From positions 1-58,112 of the forward strand of contig NZ_JAIUZY010000017.1 in the NCBI RefSeq assembly GCF_020171625.1: a DNA stretch of 58,112 bases, written 5' to 3'. The number at the start of each line of letters is the position of its first letter. The first letter of the stretch is position 1. The notes under the pieces were generated by a model. The model saw only the letters and a list, made by a program, of their open reading frames with translations, searched no databases and was not told where the DNA came from. The DNA is from Salipiger bermudensis. GTDB lineage: Bacteria > Pseudomonadota > Alphaproteobacteria > Rhodobacterales > Rhodobacteraceae. A program made the translations under genes and the position numbers. Shown here one piece after another: positions 34,091 through 41,388 of this stretch.

Positions 34091-35131
34091 CTACAGTTTC
34101 AGAGCGACCGGGACGATGAGGATCAAGGCAAAAATCCGCACGAGGTGATGCACGGCCACGTAGGCCGGGTCTAACCCCAGAGACAGGCCAATCGCGGCCA
34201 TGGCCTCGACCCCGCCGGGCGCATAGGCAATCCAGATCTGGCTGAAGGAGAGCGCCGTAAGCTCGACCGCGATCAGGGCGAAGACGAGCGAAACAATGAG
34301 AGCCGTCGCCACCGTGGACAGGCCAGCAAGAAAGTAGCTCCGGATTTGACCGAGGGTCACGCGGCTCATCCGCGATCCCAGCACCGCACCGGTGAGGGCA
34401 AAGGCGATGAAAATGACCCATGGCGGTGTCGCCCCCTGCACGAGCCCTCCAGCGTGGGCGGCGGCGCTGACAGCCATGCCCGAGAGCAAGCTCGCCGCGG
34501 GCAGGCCCAGCCGGCTCCCGATCAGTCCCAGCAGCACAGCGGCGGCCAGCAAGCTGACGAGCGCCAGAAGGTCCATGTTGGCCGGGGTCAGCGCCGAAGC
34601 GACCTCCGACGTGTCAAACGCCACGGCCAGTGGGGGAACGAGGATGACCAGCGCGAGAAGACGCATCAGCTGGAGAAACATCACCGCTGTCGCGTCCCCG
34701 GTGCCTTCTGCGGCAATCGCCACGGCGTTTGACATGGTGCCGGGCGAACTGGCCAGCGTTGCCGTCTGCGCGTCCAGCCCGAAGATCCGGGTCAGGAGGA
34801 GTCGTCCGGTGAGGACCGTGACCACCAGCGACAGGATGAGGATCGACAGGCTGATGCCCCATGTGCTGATCTGGCCAAAGACGTCTTCGGTCACGCTTGA
34901 TCCGAGCGACACGCCAATCGTCGCAAAGGCAAGGTCGCGCAGCCCGTTCGGCAGGCCGACCTTGAGGCCAAGGGCAGAGACACCGGCGACGGCAAGGGTG
35001 CTGCCGATCAACGCCCCTGCCGGAATGCCCGCGAGGGCGGCCAAGGCCGCCCCCGCAAGTCCTGCCAGAATGGTCGGCAGGTAGGATTTCAGATCGAGCA
35101 ACACGTCGTCAGATCGCTTTCGAATTGCCAT
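34091..35131 (-). CDS. AbrB family transporter (COG3180, duplicated AbrB membrane domain)
   Basis: A 346-residue polytopic membrane protein with two repeated halves of about five segments each. Family landmarks are LPNGLRDLAFATIGVSLGSSV and ASSPGTMSNAVAIAAEGTGD in the first half, and AYAPGGVEAMAAIGLSLGLDP in the second. These proteins are often mislabelled as ammonia monooxygenases. The physiological substrate is unknown. It overlaps the tctA stop by 23 bases if the ATG at 35131 is used, so it appears to be the last gene of the tct operon, an unusual partner. Confidence 0.82.
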   Translation of the reverse strand: MAIRKRSDDVLLDLKSYLPTILAGLAGAALAALAGIPAGALIGSTLAVAGVSALGLKVGLPNGLRDLAFATIGVSLGSSVTEDVFGQISTWGISLSILILSLVVTVLTGRLLLTRIFGLDAQTATLASSPGTMSNAVAIAAEGTGDATAVMFLQLMRLLALVILVPPLAVAFDTSEVASALTPANMDLLALVSLLAAAVLLGLIGSRLGLPAASLLSGMAVSAAAHAGGLVQGATPPWVIFIAFALTGAVLGSRMSRVTLGQIRSYFLAGLSTVATALIVSLVFALIAVELTALSFSQIWIAYAPGGVEAMAAIGLSLGLDPAYVAVHHLVRIFALILIVPVALKL

Positions 35132-36629
35132 CGCCTTCCATTTTGCGCGCCCGCCGGGACAGCCAGATCGGGGCAATCACCACCAGAAGCGCGAGGACAT
35201 AAAGCACGATGCTCTTGTAGTCCGCGACCAGGATCGACCAGTCCCCGCCCGAGATCGACAGCGCCCGGCGCAGGTTGTTCTCGAACAGGCTGCCAAGCAC
35301 GAAGCCAAGGATGACCGGCGCCAGCGAGAAGTCGAGCTTTCGCAGGAACCAGCCGAACACGCCAAGGCCGGTGATCAGAAGCAGGTCAAAGGGGTTGCCC
35401 ACGATGGTGTAGATGCCGATGAAGGCGAGGATGGCGATCAGCGGTGTCAGGTAATGCTGCGGGATCGTCAACATCCGCGCAAACAGCCCCACGAGCGGCA
35501 GGTTGATGACCAGCAGTGCCACGTTGCCGATATACATCGAGGCGATCAGACCCCATGCGACCTCGGGACGCTGCACGAACATCATCGGACCGGGTTGAAT
35601 GTTGAACATCAACAGCGCGCCAAGCAGGATGGCCGTGGTGCCGGACCCCGGAATGCCGAGGGTCAGCATCGGCACCATCGCACCGCCGGCGGCCGCGTTG
35701 TTGGCGGCTTCGGGCGCTGCCAGCCCGCGCACATCGCCGGTGCCGAAGGTCTTGTCGGTGTCCGAAATCCTCTTCTCGGTGCCATAGGCGACGGCAGAGG
35801 CCACGGAGGCGCCGGTGCCGGGCAGGATGCCGATGAAGAAGCCGATGACCGAGGCCCGCACGATGGTCCACTTGCATTTCGCCAGATCGGCCATGCGCAC
35901 GAAGCTCTTGTCCACCGGAAGGGCCTTGAGCTTGCCCGAAACCTGATGCTCGACGAGTGTCAGCAACTCGGCCATGCCGAACAGCCCCACCACCACGATC
36001 AGGAAGTCGATCCCCGCCAGAATGTCCGGCAGTCCGAACGTATAGCGCGGCACGCCGGTATTGGCATCGATCCCGATGGTCGCCAGCATCAGGCCAATGG
36101 TGGCCCCGAGCAGCGTCTTGACCGTGCTTTTGCCGACCAGAGAGGCCAGCGAGGCGAAGGCAAAGACCATCAGTGCCACATAGTCGGCGGGCGAGAATGT
36201 TACCGCGAAGGACGCCAGGGTCGGCGCGAACAGCGACATCAGGATCACCGCGAAGGTGCCGCCGATGAACGAGGCGATGGCAGACAGCGCGAGAGCACGC
36301 CCAGCCAGCCCGGCACGGGCCATTGGATTGCCGTCAAGCGTGGTCATCACCGCGCCCGCATCGCCCGGAACATTGAGCAGGATCGAGGAGATCCGCCCGC
36401 CGTACTCCGCGCCATAGTAGATGCCGGCCAGCAGGATCAGCGCCGATTCAGGACCGAACCCCAGCCCGTAGGCGATGGGCAGCAGGATGGCCACGCCGTT
36501 GATCGGACCAAGCCCCGGAAGGGCGCCAATCAGGGTGCCGGCGAAACAGCCCGCAAGAACGAGAAAGAGGTTGAACGGGTCGAGCGCCACGCCAAAGCCC
36601 GTGGCAAGGCCGGTAAGAACGGTTTCCAT
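35109..36629 (-). CDS. tctA: TctA large permease of the tripartite tricarboxylate transporter
   Basis: A 506-residue permease with about 12 membrane segments. The duplicated TctA glycine motifs are visible: FAGTLIGALPGLGPINGVAILLP (start of the first half, near residue 30) and FFIGILPGTGASVASAVAYG (second half, near 260). GIPGSGTTAILLGALL lies between them in function. Its ATG overlaps the tctB stop (TGATG). It moves the substrate delivered by TctC across the inner membrane. Confidence 0.95.
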   Translation of the reverse strand: METVLTGLATGFGVALDPFNLFLVLAGCFAGTLIGALPGLGPINGVAILLPIAYGLGFGPESALILLAGIYYGAEYGGRISSILLNVPGDAGAVMTTLDGNPMARAGLAGRALALSAIASFIGGTFAVILMSLFAPTLASFAVTFSPADYVALMVFAFASLASLVGKSTVKTLLGATIGLMLATIGIDANTGVPRYTFGLPDILAGIDFLIVVVGLFGMAELLTLVEHQVSGKLKALPVDKSFVRMADLAKCKWTIVRASVIGFFIGILPGTGASVASAVAYGTEKRISDTDKTFGTGDVRGLAAPEAANNAAAGGAMVPMLTLGIPGSGTTAILLGALLMFNIQPGPMMFVQRPEVAWGLIASMYIGNVALLVINLPLVGLFARMLTIPQHYLTPLIAILAFIGIYTIVGNPFDLLLITGLGVFGWFLRKLDFSLAPVILGFVLGSLFENNLRRALSISGGDWSILVADYKSIVLYVLALLVVIAPIWLSRRARKMEGDGNSKAI

Positions 36630-37096
36630 CAGGAGCTTTCCTCTTGAAACGTGTCGACGATCGCCTCGTAGAGCTCACCGTCGGGCAGGTTGAGCTCGAG
36701 CAGCGTGGCGCAGAGCAGATAGCCCAGCACCCCGGCGGCGACGCCGAAGAGCGCCGAGCGCCAGATGCCCGCTCCCAGCATCGCGCAGAGCGTGGTGCCA
36801 AAGAGGATCGTGGCAAGGATGAAGCCGAGCGGCTCGTAGAGTTCGGAATAGGCAACCAGCATGATCACCGTGGCGCCCAGACGAAACCAGGTCTGACGGG
36901 TGACGCCCATCTCTTCGGTGTCGGGTTTCCACAGGATCACCAGCAGGCAGGCAATCGCGACAAGCGACAGGATGCGCGGCCAGCTTTCGGGGCCAAGCGG
37001 GTCATACTGGAAGGGCGCGCTGATGGCGGTGAACGCGATGACCGCATAGGCAAGCGTTACGACCAGCAGGACCCCGGCAAAAATTCGGTCGACCAT
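36629..37096 (-). CDS. tctB: TctB small permease of the tripartite tricarboxylate transporter
   Basis: A 155-residue membrane protein with four hydrophobic segments, the TctB size and layout. The segment FQYDPLGPESWPRILSL near residue 30 is the common TctB motif after the first helix. It overlaps tctA by one or two bases and is separated from tctC by a 10-bp hairpin, so it is likely made at a lower level than TctC. Confidence 0.9.
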   Translation of the reverse strand: MVDRIFAGVLLVVTLAYAVIAFTAISAPFQYDPLGPESWPRILSLVAIACLLVILWKPDTEEMGVTRQTWFRLGATVIMLVAYSELYEPLGFILATILFGTTLCAMLGAGIWRSALFGVAAGVLGYLLCATLLELNLPDGELYEAIVDTFQEESS

Positions 37097-37180: not shown

Positions 37181-38152
37181 TCAGTTGATCAGCCCGGCCT
37201 CTTTGGCGATGGTGCGAAGGTTCTCGACCCGCTCTTCGATGGAGCTCTGAAGGGCTTCACCGGCAAGGTTCATCGGCAGCAGGCCACGCTCTTTCTGGAT
37301 CGCGGCGAACTCCGGCGTTGCATAGGCGGCCTCGAAGGCATCGACCCACTTCTGGTAGTCTTCGTCGGACACCTCGCCGCCCATGTAGAAGCCGCGCAGG
37401 ATGGTCCATTCCACGTCGAAGCCTTGTTCGATCGCGGTCGGGATCTCGGCAAACGGGGCCTCCAGACGGTCGGGCGACATCACGGCGAGGATGCGCATCT
37501 GGCCGGATTCAATGTGCGGCACCATTTCACCCACATCGCCCATGTAGACCTCGATCGAACCGCCCAGCAGGGCCGCAATCGCATCGCCGCCACCATCGAA
37601 CGCGACATAGCGCATGTCCATCGGCTTTGCTCCGGCTTCGCGCAGCAAGAGCGCGCCCTTCATCCAGTCCTGCGAGCCGACGGAACCGCCCGCGCCCACG
37701 ACGACCGAAGCGGGATCGGCGGAAAAGTCGCTCATCAGCTGCGACAGATCGGTATAGTCGCTGTCGGCACGCACCACCACGGCACCGAAATCGGCGCCAG
37801 CAGTGCCGACCCAGCGGACGTCCTTCTCGGTGAAGGCGCCGTATTTGCCGGTGACGATGTTCAGCAGCGAGCCCGTCGAGAACGCGACGATGGCGGAGCC
37901 GTCATCGGTGCGGGTCGAATTGAAGAGGTTGTAGGCCACTGCCCCGATGCCGCCGGGCATGAAGGTGACCTGAACCGGCGCATCGATATGCGGGTCGAGA
38001 CCGGTCTGCGCCACACGGCAAGTCAGATCGAAGCCACCACCGGGGTTTGCCGGGGCCACGCATTCGGGATTGTCGATCTGGACCTGCGCGGATGCGGATG
38101 CCGCAAAACCGGCGGCCACGATGATGGCCGCGCCAAAGCGAGTGAATTTCAT
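37181..38152 (-). CDS. tctC: TctC periplasmic tricarboxylate-binding protein
   Basis: A 323-residue binding protein with signal peptide ending at ASASA|QVQID (residue 22). Residues 25-48 contain ECVAPANPGGGFDLTC, close to the citrate-binding Salmonella TctC pattern, so citrate or a similar tricarboxylate is a better guess here than for most TctC relatives. The start at 38152 follows AGGGAGGAACACCA. The gene is divergent from the tctD-like regulator. Four 11-bp-spaced repeats lie 65-110 bases upstream of its start. Confidence 0.93.
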   Translation of the reverse strand: MKFTRFGAAIIVAAGFAASASAQVQIDNPECVAPANPGGGFDLTCRVAQTGLDPHIDAPVQVTFMPGGIGAVAYNLFNSTRTDDGSAIVAFSTGSLLNIVTGKYGAFTEKDVRWVGTAGADFGAVVVRADSDYTDLSQLMSDFSADPASVVVGAGGSVGSQDWMKGALLLREAGAKPMDMRYVAFDGGGDAIAALLGGSIEVYMGDVGEMVPHIESGQMRILAVMSPDRLEAPFAEIPTAIEQGFDVEWTILRGFYMGGEVSDEDYQKWVDAFEAAYATPEFAAIQKERGLLPMNLAGEALQSSIEERVENLRTIAKEAGLIN

Positions 38153-38216
38153 TGGTGTTCCTCCCTGAACAATGTCTCCGGGTCCCCCCGGGGTCAGACA
38201 TCTATAGAGAGGCTTG

Positions 38217-38315: not shown

Positions 38316-38990
38316 ATGCGCATTCTTCTGGTGGAAGATAATGACGAACTGGCCGAGACGATCGTGGATCGTCTTCGGGCCGAGGGACATTCCGTTGATC
38401 GCGAAAGCGACGGCAACGAAGCCAACGAGCTGCTGCGCCACATCAATTTCGATATCATTCTGCTGGACGTGAACCTGCCCGGACGCAGCGGCTATGACGT
38501 GCTGCGCTCGCTTCGGGCGCGGTCCGACCAGACCCCCGTGATCATCCTCACGGCGCGCAGCCAGATCGACGACCGCGTGCTCGGCCTCGATGCGGGCGCG
38601 GATGACTACATGATCAAGCCGGTTGATTTCCGTGAATTGTCCGCCCGCTGCCGCGTTCTGGCACGGCGGCGTTCGGGCAGCGCCAGCAACCTTTTTACCG
38701 TCGGTGCCTTCAGTTTCGACCGCGCCGCCAAACTCGCGAAGATCAACGGTCAGGACGCGCAACTGCGCGCGCGGGAAGTGCAGTTGCTGGAGATCATGAT
38801 CGACAACCTTGGCCGTATGCTGACCAAGGAAGAAGTGGCCGACCGCCTCTATACCTTCGAAGAAACGCCGAGCATGAACGCCGTCGAGCAGCTCGTGACG
38901 CGGCTGCGGAAAAAGCTGGAGGGCACCCATCTGGTGATCAAGACCGCGCGGGGTCTGGGCTATATGGCCTATGTCTCGGACGATGACTGA
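38316..38990 (+). CDS. tctD: TctD-like response regulator (OmpR family)
   Basis: A 224-residue regulator. The receiver domain shows VEDND near the start, phospho-acceptor Asp51 in IILLDVNLPG and the Lys in DYMIKPVD. The C-terminal winged helix (about 125-220) ends with IKTARGLGYMAYV. It is paired with the histidine kinase gene that overlaps its end, and it is divergent from tctC, as in known tctDE-tctCBA loci. Its binding site is likely the CTGAY repeat block just upstream. Confidence 0.92.
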   Translation: MRILLVEDNDELAETIVDRLRAEGHSVDRESDGNEANELLRHINFDIILLDVNLPGRSGYDVLRSLRARSDQTPVIILTARSQIDDRVLGLDAGADDYMIKPVDFRELSARCRVLARRRSGSASNLFTVGAFSFDRAAKLAKINGQDAQLRAREVQLLEIMIDNLGRMLTKEEVADRLYTFEETPSMNAVEQLVTRLRKKLEGTHLVIKTARGLGYMAYVSDDD

Positions 38991-41388
38991 ACGGCCCGGC
39001 CATTCGCTGCAACGACGACTGCTGTTCAGCATGGCTGCGGGGTTCGCGATCCTGCTCATCCTGATCTCGATCCTGCTCTGGACCTATGCCCGCTCGGCGG
39101 CGAACCGGACGCACGACCTCCTGCTCGCGGGCGCAGCGCTGTCGATCCTGGAACGGGTCTCGATCGGACCAGACGGACCGACGGTGGACATGCCCTATTC
39201 GGCATTGGAAATCCTTTCATTGAACCCTGTCGACCGCGTTCAGTACCGGGTGTTCGTCCCCGGAAAGGCGGACATCACCGGCAACGAAGACCTCCCCTTT
39301 CCGACGAATGACGAATTGTCCGCCGAGCCTGTGTTCTACGATTCCGATTACCAAGGCGCCGCGTTTCGCTTCGTCATGCAGGGCAGACGTCTGAATGCCC
39401 CGACGGGGGCGGAATGGGTGGCGGTGAAGGTTGGACAGACGGTCGAGGAGCGCGCCTCGCAACAATGGTCCTTCTTTCTCAGCGGCCTGATCGGGCTGGG
39501 GGCGCTGTCTCTGATCGGGCTCGGCTTCGTTTGGGTCGCAATCCGCACGTCACTGTCCCCCCTGCGGCAGATCGCGGGCGACCTGAGGCTGCGCGCCCCG
39601 AATGATCTCTCACCGGTCGAAGGCGCACCGCCGCGCGAAATTCGCGGGCTTTTCGACGCGATCAACGGTTTCATCACCCGGCTCGATCAGAGCCGCTCCC
39701 TCACCGAGACCTTTATCGCCGACGTTGCCCATCAGACCCGCACCTCGCTTTCCGCGCTGCAAGGACACCTGGCGCTGGCGGTCGATGCCGAGGATTTCGA
39801 CGCGATGCGCGCCCGGGTCGACAGGGCTGACAGACAGGCCGCGCGCACGGTGCGGCTGACCAACCAGCTCTTGGCAAATGCGATGGTGATCCACCGATCG
39901 GACCAGGCCAGTATGCACCCGGTGGCGCTGCGGGCGCTGGTCCGGGACACCCTCGCCGAAAGTCTCAAGGACAGCCGGATGCGCAAGATCGCCCTGTCCT
40001 TCGAGGACGAAGGCATCGCGCCGGGACGGGACGTGATCCACGGCGATGCCTTGTCGATCCGCGAGGCGCTGCGCAATCTGATCGAGAACGCCGTGCGACA
40101 TGGCCCTACGGACAACACCGTGACGATCACGCTGGACGAGGCCGACGAACAGGTGCGCCTGAGTGTCGATGACGCCGGACCGGGTATTGCCGACGAGGAC
40201 TTGGCGCAGGCCACCGAGCGTTTCACATCCCTGTCGACCAAGACCAGAGGGTCGGGTCTCGGCCTGTCCATCGTCAAAGCGGTCGCCGAGGGCCACGACG
40301 CGGAGCTGCGCCTCGGGCGGTCGTCGCTTGGCGGGTTGAACGTCACGCTGATTTTCAGGCGCCTCGCGGTGGCCCTCCTGCTGATCCTTGGGCTGGGTTT
40401 CACCGGGCCAGAGGCCCAGGCGCAGACCCTGCGCATCTACAGCGCCACCGACACCCCGGCCATGCAGCCTCTGATCGACGCTTTCATTGCCACCACCCCC
40501 GGCGCCACGGTCGAGTATGTCGAATTTCAAACCATCGACCTCTACGAGAGAATACTCGACAGCACGCCCGAAGAGATGCCGGATGTCGTGATATCCTCGG
40601 CGATGGACCTGCAAGTGGATCTTGTGAACCGCGGCCTCGCGCAACGGGTTTTCCTCCCGGCAGACGCCATGCCGCCGGAATGGGGCACATGGCGCTCGGA
40701 ACTCTTTGGCTTCACCTTCGAGCCGGCCGCCGTGGTCTATGACAGGCGGGCGATTTCGGCGAGCGAGCTCCCCGCAAACCATCGCGATCTCGCAACGTTC
40801 GTGCGCGCCAATGAAAGCCGTCTGAGAGGGCGGATCGGCAGCTACGATCTGCGAGCGTCGGGCGTGGGATATCTCTATGCCTCACAAGACAGCCTGCAAG
40901 GGCCACAGGCGCAACGATTGATCGAGGTTCTCGGGCGCGCCGGTCTGCGCATCTATTGCTGCACGTCGCGAATGGTGGACGCGGTGGCGAGAGGCGAGTT
41001 GGCGTTTGCGGTGAATACGATCGGGTCCTATGCCAGCAGCCTCATCGCGGACATGCCGCAGCTCGGTCTGCATTTCTTCGAGGACTACAATCTCGTGATG
41101 ACACGCACGGCATTTGTTCCGGCCGCATCGAGGCAGCCGGAGCTTGCAGCAAGCTTTGTCACCTATCTTCTCTCCGAAACGGGGCAAAGCGCCATCGCGG
41201 AGCAGACGCCGCTCATTCCGATCCGGCCCAGCGCCCCAGCCCATAAGGAAATCGAGCGAATGATCGCGGAGAAGCGCGGCACCTTCCTCCCGATAAAGCT
41301 GACGCCAGCTTTGCTGACGTTTCTGGATGTTTTGAAGAAGAGGGACTTTCTCTCTGTCTGGGACACGTCCCTTGCACGGCTACCCTGA
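38971..41388 (+). CDS. TctE-like histidine kinase fused in frame to a periplasmic solute-binding domain
   Basis: An 805-residue protein. Residues about 17-39 and 168-191 are membrane segments around a short periplasmic sensor; a HAMP-like linker follows. HisKA has His254 in DVAHQTRTSL. The ATPase part has LRNLIENAVRHG, DDAGPGI (about 401) and GSGLGLSIV (about 427). A normal TctE would end near residue 463. Here the frame runs on through a third hydrophobic segment (464-478, ending GPEAQAQT like a signal-peptide end) into about 320 residues of an ABC-type binding protein (LRIYSATDTPAMQPLIDAF, GLAQRVFLPADA, FTFEPAAVVYDRR). The topology would place that domain in the periplasm. An ATG at 38983 is an equally good start. 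An internal start making a separate binding protein is not excluded; the only candidates are GTG/TTG codons without a clear ribosome site. Confidence 0.85.
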   Translation: MSRTMTERPGHSLQRRLLFSMAAGFAILLILISILLWTYARSAANRTHDLLLAGAALSILERVSIGPDGPTVDMPYSALEILSLNPVDRVQYRVFVPGKADITGNEDLPFPTNDELSAEPVFYDSDYQGAAFRFVMQGRRLNAPTGAEWVAVKVGQTVEERASQQWSFFLSGLIGLGALSLIGLGFVWVAIRTSLSPLRQIAGDLRLRAPNDLSPVEGAPPREIRGLFDAINGFITRLDQSRSLTETFIADVAHQTRTSLSALQGHLALAVDAEDFDAMRARVDRADRQAARTVRLTNQLLANAMVIHRSDQASMHPVALRALVRDTLAESLKDSRMRKIALSFEDEGIAPGRDVIHGDALSIREALRNLIENAVRHGPTDNTVTITLDEADEQVRLSVDDAGPGIADEDLAQATERFTSLSTKTRGSGLGLSIVKAVAEGHDAELRLGRSSLGGLNVTLIFRRLAVALLLILGLGFTGPEAQAQTLRIYSATDTPAMQPLIDAFIATTPGATVEYVEFQTIDLYERILDSTPEEMPDVVISSAMDLQVDLVNRGLAQRVFLPADAMPPEWGTWRSELFGFTFEPAAVVYDRRAISASELPANHRDLATFVRANESRLRGRIGSYDLRASGVGYLYASQDSLQGPQAQRLIEVLGRAGLRIYCCTSRMVDAVARGELAFAVNTIGSYASSLIADMPQLGLHFFEDYNLVMTRTAFVPAASRQPELAASFVTYLLSETGQSAIAEQTPLIPIRPSAPAHKEIERMIAEKRGTFLPIKLTPALLTFLDVLKKRDFLSVWDTSLARLP

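Follow-up and report, generated by a model that had tools for sequence, protein, structure and literature searches.

The locus considered here raises a plain question: when a sensor kinase and a solute-binding protein (SBP) are read from one frame, does the cell obtain one protein, two proteins or the product of an accident? It lies in a 58,112-nucleotide stretch of Salipiger bermudensis DNA (contig NZ_JAIUZY010000017.1), the whole of which is called the window below, and consists of a TctE-like sensor kinase with an SBP joined to its C-terminus. That 38971-41388 (+) encodes a true kinase-SBP fusion is confirmed. The reading preferred for its product is a single chain that would be cut after A484, with a freed SBP docking on the kinase and tctCBA being switched on, and to this whole a probability of roughly 0.57 is given. 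The broader proposition is put at about even odds: a two-component polyprotein divided by signal peptidase I at an internal site under selection, whose spent signal adds a third membrane segment to the kinase and whose halves were joined at least twice, the fusion lasting in one lineage (lineage A) to about 40% identity.

One frame, two proteins by domain

The frame contains no stop along its 805 codons. Its second ATG, at 38983, is the start of the database protein P0003 (801 amino acids) and overlaps the stop of the response-regulator gene; P0003 residue numbers plus 4 give those of the window protein. The Pfam domains 2CSK_N, HisKA, HATPase_c and SBP_bac_11 (residues 487-744) each score over their curated cut-offs, which agrees with an earlier note on this DNA that had described a single open frame joining a TctE-like kinase to a binding protein. 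The same note took the kinase to be complete, with His254 and the N, D and G boxes. His254 is indeed in place (Table 1), and the residues of the H, N, D and G boxes (H250, N365/N369, D397/G399/G401 and G423/G425/G427 in P0003 numbers) are invariant in 40 fusions. The hydrophobic 19-mer maxima of the window protein begin at residues 18, 173 and 458; the first two are the transmembrane segments TM1 and TM2, and the third belongs to the joint between the two halves.

Recurrence of the fusion

Matches covering both halves were found in 7/20 genomes of the genus, 5/394 genomes of a family sample and 2/385 genomes of a class sample, the last of which also held one split pair (two candidates were scored per genome in the family and class searches). 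The distribution is patchy. When the SBP part was searched against proteins restricted by length to fusion size, 156 proteins were returned at E<=1e-20, and among the best 120 the 119 other than the window's own are 48-86% identical to it; about 8000 candidates were scored both in this search and in the one with a Skermanella fusion described below. Named genomes, scanned with 40 aligned fusions as the query, yielded 80 loci. Classification was given for 91 of 92 loci (L145 alone, not adjacent, was left unclassified), 48 being fused and 43 not fused, the latter including L097 and L105, in which the fusion is interrupted by a frame break within the SBP part. Minus eight duplicates, there are 40 distinct fused loci, among which L128 is damaged. 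Three plasmid records carry the fusion as well, one of them being L003, already among the fused loci. All three name the matching product 'extracellular solute-binding protein', so the kinase is hidden from searches by name. In Salipiger profundus plasmid pTPRO1, whose record is titled complete, the fusion is annotated as a single coding sequence with the same 8-base overlap with the regulator.

The earlier note had proposed a database check for recurrence and had allowed for a sequencing error that hides a stop or frameshift. With the fusion present in 40 distinct loci, one damaged, kept through deep divergence and present in plasmid records, such an error is very unlikely, and it was set aside on the recurrence across genus, family, named genomes and plasmids. 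A wider form of this explanation, in which the fusion is an accident without function owing to a lost stop, a sequencing error or a decaying gene, would suit the patchy distribution in the family and the fact that some copies are damaged (L097, L105, L128, G002 and G366). However, 38 fused rows form one clade with identities down to about 40% in a tree from which the damaged copies are absent, the kinase box residues are invariant, and plasmid records carry the fusion, so that an accident is regarded as most improbable.

The damaged copies differ in kind. In P0003 numbers, the frame break of L097 lies near residue 562 and that of L105 near residue 555, almost the same place in the SBP part; L128 shows frame breaks and a deletion removing the joint, L008 (G002:C39) has large losses that include the phospho-acceptor region, and L048 (G366:C1) is a lone fragment.

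Compared with the Sulfitobacter delicatus copy (L072), the window copy shows 91% identity in the kinase and 81% in the SBP; with five of six other fusions of its own genus it is 58-60% identical, and with the sixth 43%. Because it is nearer to the Sulfitobacter copy than to its congeners, this suggests horizontal transfer of the window's fusion. Also present in the genus are a TctE-like kinase and an SBP that form an unfused pair (L040, G019:C6; L033, G018:C1) and are 33-37% identical to the two halves of the fusion.

Split relatives and the origin of the fusion

In split relatives the SBP gene directly follows the kinase gene, with a 4-base overlap in 26/41 when the start is chosen by script; the genera include Jiella, Thalassospira, Cohaesibacter, Marinobacterium and others. 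Since split pairs are more widely spread, the fusion is taken to be the derived state. In a 91-row tree of concatenated kinase and SBP, the 38 fused rows form a single clade with a Shimodaira-Hasegawa-like approximate likelihood ratio (SH-aLRT) support of 98 and no split row within it, and a Skermanella fusion is placed apart. For this tree 15 loci were dropped by name, namely same records (L002, L004-L007), duplicates (L043-L045, L137), partial SBPs (L111, L131, L138) and damaged copies (L097, L105, L128), and 15 split pairs were added. A search with the Skermanella fusion returned 229 proteins of this second lineage (lineage B); among the best 120, those that carry an organism name come chiefly from Azospirillum, the remainder being from Skermanella and a small number of other genera. 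A 105-row tree, in which both lineages were thinned and the Skermanella protein is present twice (L107, P0123), requires two changes of state, with support of 99 for the lineage-A clade and 88 for the second lineage. Both trees are quick searches with no bootstrap and no inferred root. As the trees need two origins, the fusion would have arisen at least twice, the second lineage being less firm at 88 vs 99.

Judged by eye, several split SBPs appear to keep an uncleaved N-terminal anchor (L114, L116, L124-L127, L129, L131, L133, L134, L136 and L148, from Jiella, Fulvimarina, Hoeflea and relatives), and that of L139 (Acuticoccus) has a lipobox-like end.

The joint resembles a cleavable signal peptide

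The joint is ordered as follows: the kinase end GGLNVTLIF (454-462), two arginines, about 13 hydrophobic residues, a Gly/Pro stretch, A-Q-A|Q-T, and the first strand of the SBP. The A-x-A site of the window is A482-Q483-A484, followed by Q485, and the features of a signal peptidase I substrate are present, that is, a basic n-region, a short hydrophobic core and A-x-A at -3/-1. Among 24 joint positions in 40 diverse fusions only R464 and A484 reach 90% conservation (in P0003 numbers, R460 is kept in 37/40 and A480 in 36/40), and the hydrophobic core drifts. In a larger set of 117 fusions, R460 is found in 104/115 and A480 in 94/117. The mean frequency of the top residue is 0.45 at the joint vs 0.73 in TM1 and 0.79 in TM2, and the median uncharged stretch is 17 residues vs 22 and 28. 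Likewise, between the window and Sulfitobacter delicatus, 12 amino-acid changes fall in the 32 codons of the joint, 7 in 42 codons of the kinase end and 13 in 60 codons of the SBP start, with no frame break across the joint. An AlphaFold2 model built with the 117 fusions (120 minus P0047, P0049 and P0095) has a mean predicted local distance difference test score (pLDDT) of 84.5 and a predicted template modelling score of 0.66. In it TM1 and TM2 form long helices, and 462-479 is modelled without a helix at pLDDT <50, the sole long low-confidence stretch. A joint that is short, fast-evolving and non-helical and keeps its A-x-A matches what is expected of a cleavable signal peptide and makes a lasting anchor doubtful. 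The earlier note had recognised a third hydrophobic segment, which is present and would put the SBP in the periplasm; its signal-peptide-like character, ending in A-x-A|Q, had been missed, and the permanent tether that had been built on it is the doubtful part.

In two loci, L106 (Alloyangia pacifica) and L117 (Maritimibacter), the inner signal is reminiscent of a twin-arginine motif (SRRDALL and ARRQLL, respectively), and another export route might therefore be possible for their SBPs.

The SBP could also arise without any cut if ribosomes initiated again within the frame and so produced, in addition to the fusion or in its place, an SBP bearing a signal peptide of its own; a separate start inside the frame was the alternative that the earlier note had suggested. 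Split relatives do begin the SBP at the corresponding place, an in-frame TTG (40336) and GTG (40369) lie near the joint of the window, and some ATG, GTG or TTG lies between GGL and the last basic residue in 26/37 fused loci. Yet 11/37 loci are without a candidate codon, ATG is found in 6 and a Shine-Dalgarno-like motif in 4, and the commonest codon positions are each used by 13/37 loci. The TTG and GTG of the window have no spaced Shine-Dalgarno sequence and are not conserved, and a GTG start would drop the basic residues. No conserved internal start was seen in the 37 distinct fused loci examined (left out were L002, L004-L007 and L128; the identical L078, L091 and L103; and L107 and L117, where no GGL was found). 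This lack of conservation rules against an internal start as the source of the SBP, which is considered very unlikely.

The binding protein and its putative ligand

The SBP part is 29-32% identical to, and shares the fold of, MctA of Thermus (7f6e series) and Agrobacterium 3c9h; both of these, unlike the window SBP, were deposited as stand-alone SBPs of ABC transporters. It matches SBP_bac_11, SBP_bac_8, SBP_bac_1 and SBP_bac_6, and no match to the TctC family PF03401 was found in the fused SBP at E<=0.01. Five of the six mutated positions of MctA (S26, D28, S79, S164, T199 and Y221) are identical in the window (D494, S543, S630, T665 and Y687). Fusion-type loci, counted over 39 that take in L097, L105 and L128, have an adjoining response regulator in 39/39 and opposite-strand tct genes in 33/39. 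These two lines, the MctA positions and the tct genes, indicate that the ligand is probably a metal-citrate-like acid.

A vicinal Cys-Cys at window residues 663-664, which is Ser-Ser in MctA, is common to 51/67 fused and 33/38 split rows.

Proposed mechanism and its weighing

By the reading preferred here, one gene would yield one polypeptide, the kinase half of which would be inserted via TM1 and TM2 with its catalytic part folding in the cytoplasm. The inner signal R463-A484 would begin a second translocation that carries the SBP to the periplasm, and signal peptidase I would cut after A484, so that the kinase and its dedicated SBP would arise side by side in a constant 1:1 ratio and the spent signal would remain on the kinase as a short membrane tail at its C-terminus. 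Once released, the SBP may bind its metal-citrate-like carboxylic acid and, when loaded, may dock on the 2CSK_N periplasmic domain; the kinase would then phosphorylate the regulator encoded immediately upstream, and this would presumably switch on the opposite-strand tctCBA uptake operon. The action of SBP on kinase is proposed by analogy with Bordetella, where citrate-loaded BctC acts on the kinase BctE, according to passages of two papers (PMC9602780, PMC5812351), the second of which demonstrates the action of a loaded SBP on a kinase of this type.

Several observations weigh against this mechanism. A motif score for the site is weakly specific: in lineage A (115 of 120 proteins, those over 770 amino acids) the loose threshold of >=3.5 is reached by the joint in 114/115, and also by TM1 exits in 72/115 and TM2 exits in 24/115. 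In lineage B (116 of 120, at least 740 amino acids) the figures are 107/116, 97/116 and 25/116, which is no discrimination; with TM1 and the joint so close, lineage B lends a cut little support. In a shuffle test of the loose form, which ignores relatedness and lost P0007 and P0094 of 120, 108/118 compares with a shuffled mean of 87.1 and a maximum of 101, and P0122 is without a site by motif score. The best 19-mer hydropathy of the window joint, 2.10, is near that of TM2 (2.32), so the segment could stay in the membrane. Moreover, Ser26 of MctA is A492 in the window SBP, and 6/39 fusion-type loci (L098-L100, L106, L107 and L117) have no tct gene in the stretch read, so that the target operon would not be identical everywhere. 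The A-x-A as sole proof of cleavage was rejected as too weak on the TM1 scores. Because the motif score is unspecific, the case for cleavage rests on the position-wise conservation in lineage A.

It is against this background that a tethered receptor has to be considered, in which the inner segment persists as a third membrane helix and keeps the SBP attached, in the periplasm, to the kinase C-terminus, from where it would fold back onto the sensor domain. Such an order, with a cytoplasmic domain, a helix and a C-terminal periplasmic sensor, is that of PknB-like Ser/Thr kinases. CadC offers a precedent for the same topology in the passages available (PMC9214523). A tethered SBP is workable, as some split relatives seem to keep it on an uncut anchor (the Jiella and other SBPs without a usable A-x-A, and the lipobox-like L139), and with 26/41 split SBPs reaching a motif score of 3.5 and 15/41 below it, membrane retention of the SBP seems favoured in places. 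However, an anchoring role predicts decay of the A-x-A, as has apparently happened in the Jiella group, whereas lineage A keeps it; in lineage B, A-x-A sites also occur but hardly outscore the TM1 control. Mainly because the -1 alanine has not decayed in lineage A, the cut is preferred over the tether, which is the chief rival but rather unlikely.

Relation to known systems

As in this locus, the TctDE/BctDE systems with tctCBA (bctCBA) combine a 2CSK_N kinase, an OmpR-type regulator and an opposite-strand tripartite tricarboxylate transporter. Their signalling SBP is the transporter's own and is encoded by a separate gene, whereas here a second SBP of another family lies in the kinase gene and tctC is present too. 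SBP-activated kinases with the SBP gene next door share their layout with the split relatives, in which activation of the kinase by the SBP is putative; these have two genes and two starts, compared with one gene here. Histidine kinases of the BvgS type carry a binding-protein-like periplasmic sensor domain that is N-terminal and permanently tethered. They share the binding-protein fold and kinase in one gene, but in the present fusion the SBP lies at the C-terminal end and is preceded by the kinase and a signal-peptide-like segment. The cytochrome b/c1 polyprotein fbcH of Bradyrhizobium unites a membrane protein and its exported partner in one gene and is split at an internal signal peptide, like the arrangement proposed here, but it belongs to a respiratory complex and not to signalling.

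The kinase-SBP architecture is already visible in database domain lists. A literature search, mostly without subscription papers, found nothing on bacterial signal-peptidase polyproteins, fbcH included, and the conserved inner signal and its consequence were not found described in the literature searched; the word MctA was not found among the best-ranked part of the matches. The same search found no description of the fusion apart from a domain count, in which classic kinases of Azospirillum are tabulated with an SBP_bac_1 input domain, one per strain in three of four strains (PMC4618731). These kinases probably belong to the second fusion lineage; the passages of that paper concerned list the domain as an input domain and do not discuss its position, signal site or origin.

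Partnerships of binding proteins and kinases are often only proposed from gene neighbourhood, and a gene common to both, as in at least two lineages, identifies the pair directly. If the cut is true, the locus would encode a bacterial signalling polyprotein whose SBP-to-kinase ratio is set by the gene, a testable design rule; if the chain stays uncut, it is a kinase sensing with its C-terminus.

Gene neighbourhood

The features of the locus are collected in Table 1. The opposite strand of the window carries tctC, tctB and tctA by Pfam. Against the TctD equivalog NF012023 the window regulator scores 181.1 bits, the best of 101 families and under the curated cut-off of 337; it is taken to work like TctD but is not classed with that family.

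Table 1. Coordinates of the fusion gene, its parts and the adjoining genes in the window
Feature	Coordinates	Strand	Residues or length	Basis
Fusion open reading frame, TctE-like sensor kinase and SBP	38971..41388	+	805 aa	
TM1, best 19-mer	39022..39078	+	18-36	Hydropathy, AlphaFold2
2CSK_N periplasmic sensor domain	39049..39459	+	27-163	Pfam
TM2, best 19-mer	39487..39543	+	173-191	Hydropathy, AlphaFold2
HisKA (His254, codon 39730-39732)	39709..39873	+	247-301	Pfam
HATPase_c	40042..40356	+	358-462	Pfam
Inner signal-peptide-like segment, putative signal peptidase I cut after A484	40357..40422	+	R463-A484	
MctA/FbpA-like SBP	40423..41385	+	Q485-P805	
OmpR-type response regulator (TctD-like), overlapping kinase start	38316..38990	+		Pfam, NCBI-type family match
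Opposite-strand feature beside TctB/TctA	37181..38155	-		Pfam
TctB	36629..37096	-		Pfam
TctA	35109..36629	-		Pfam
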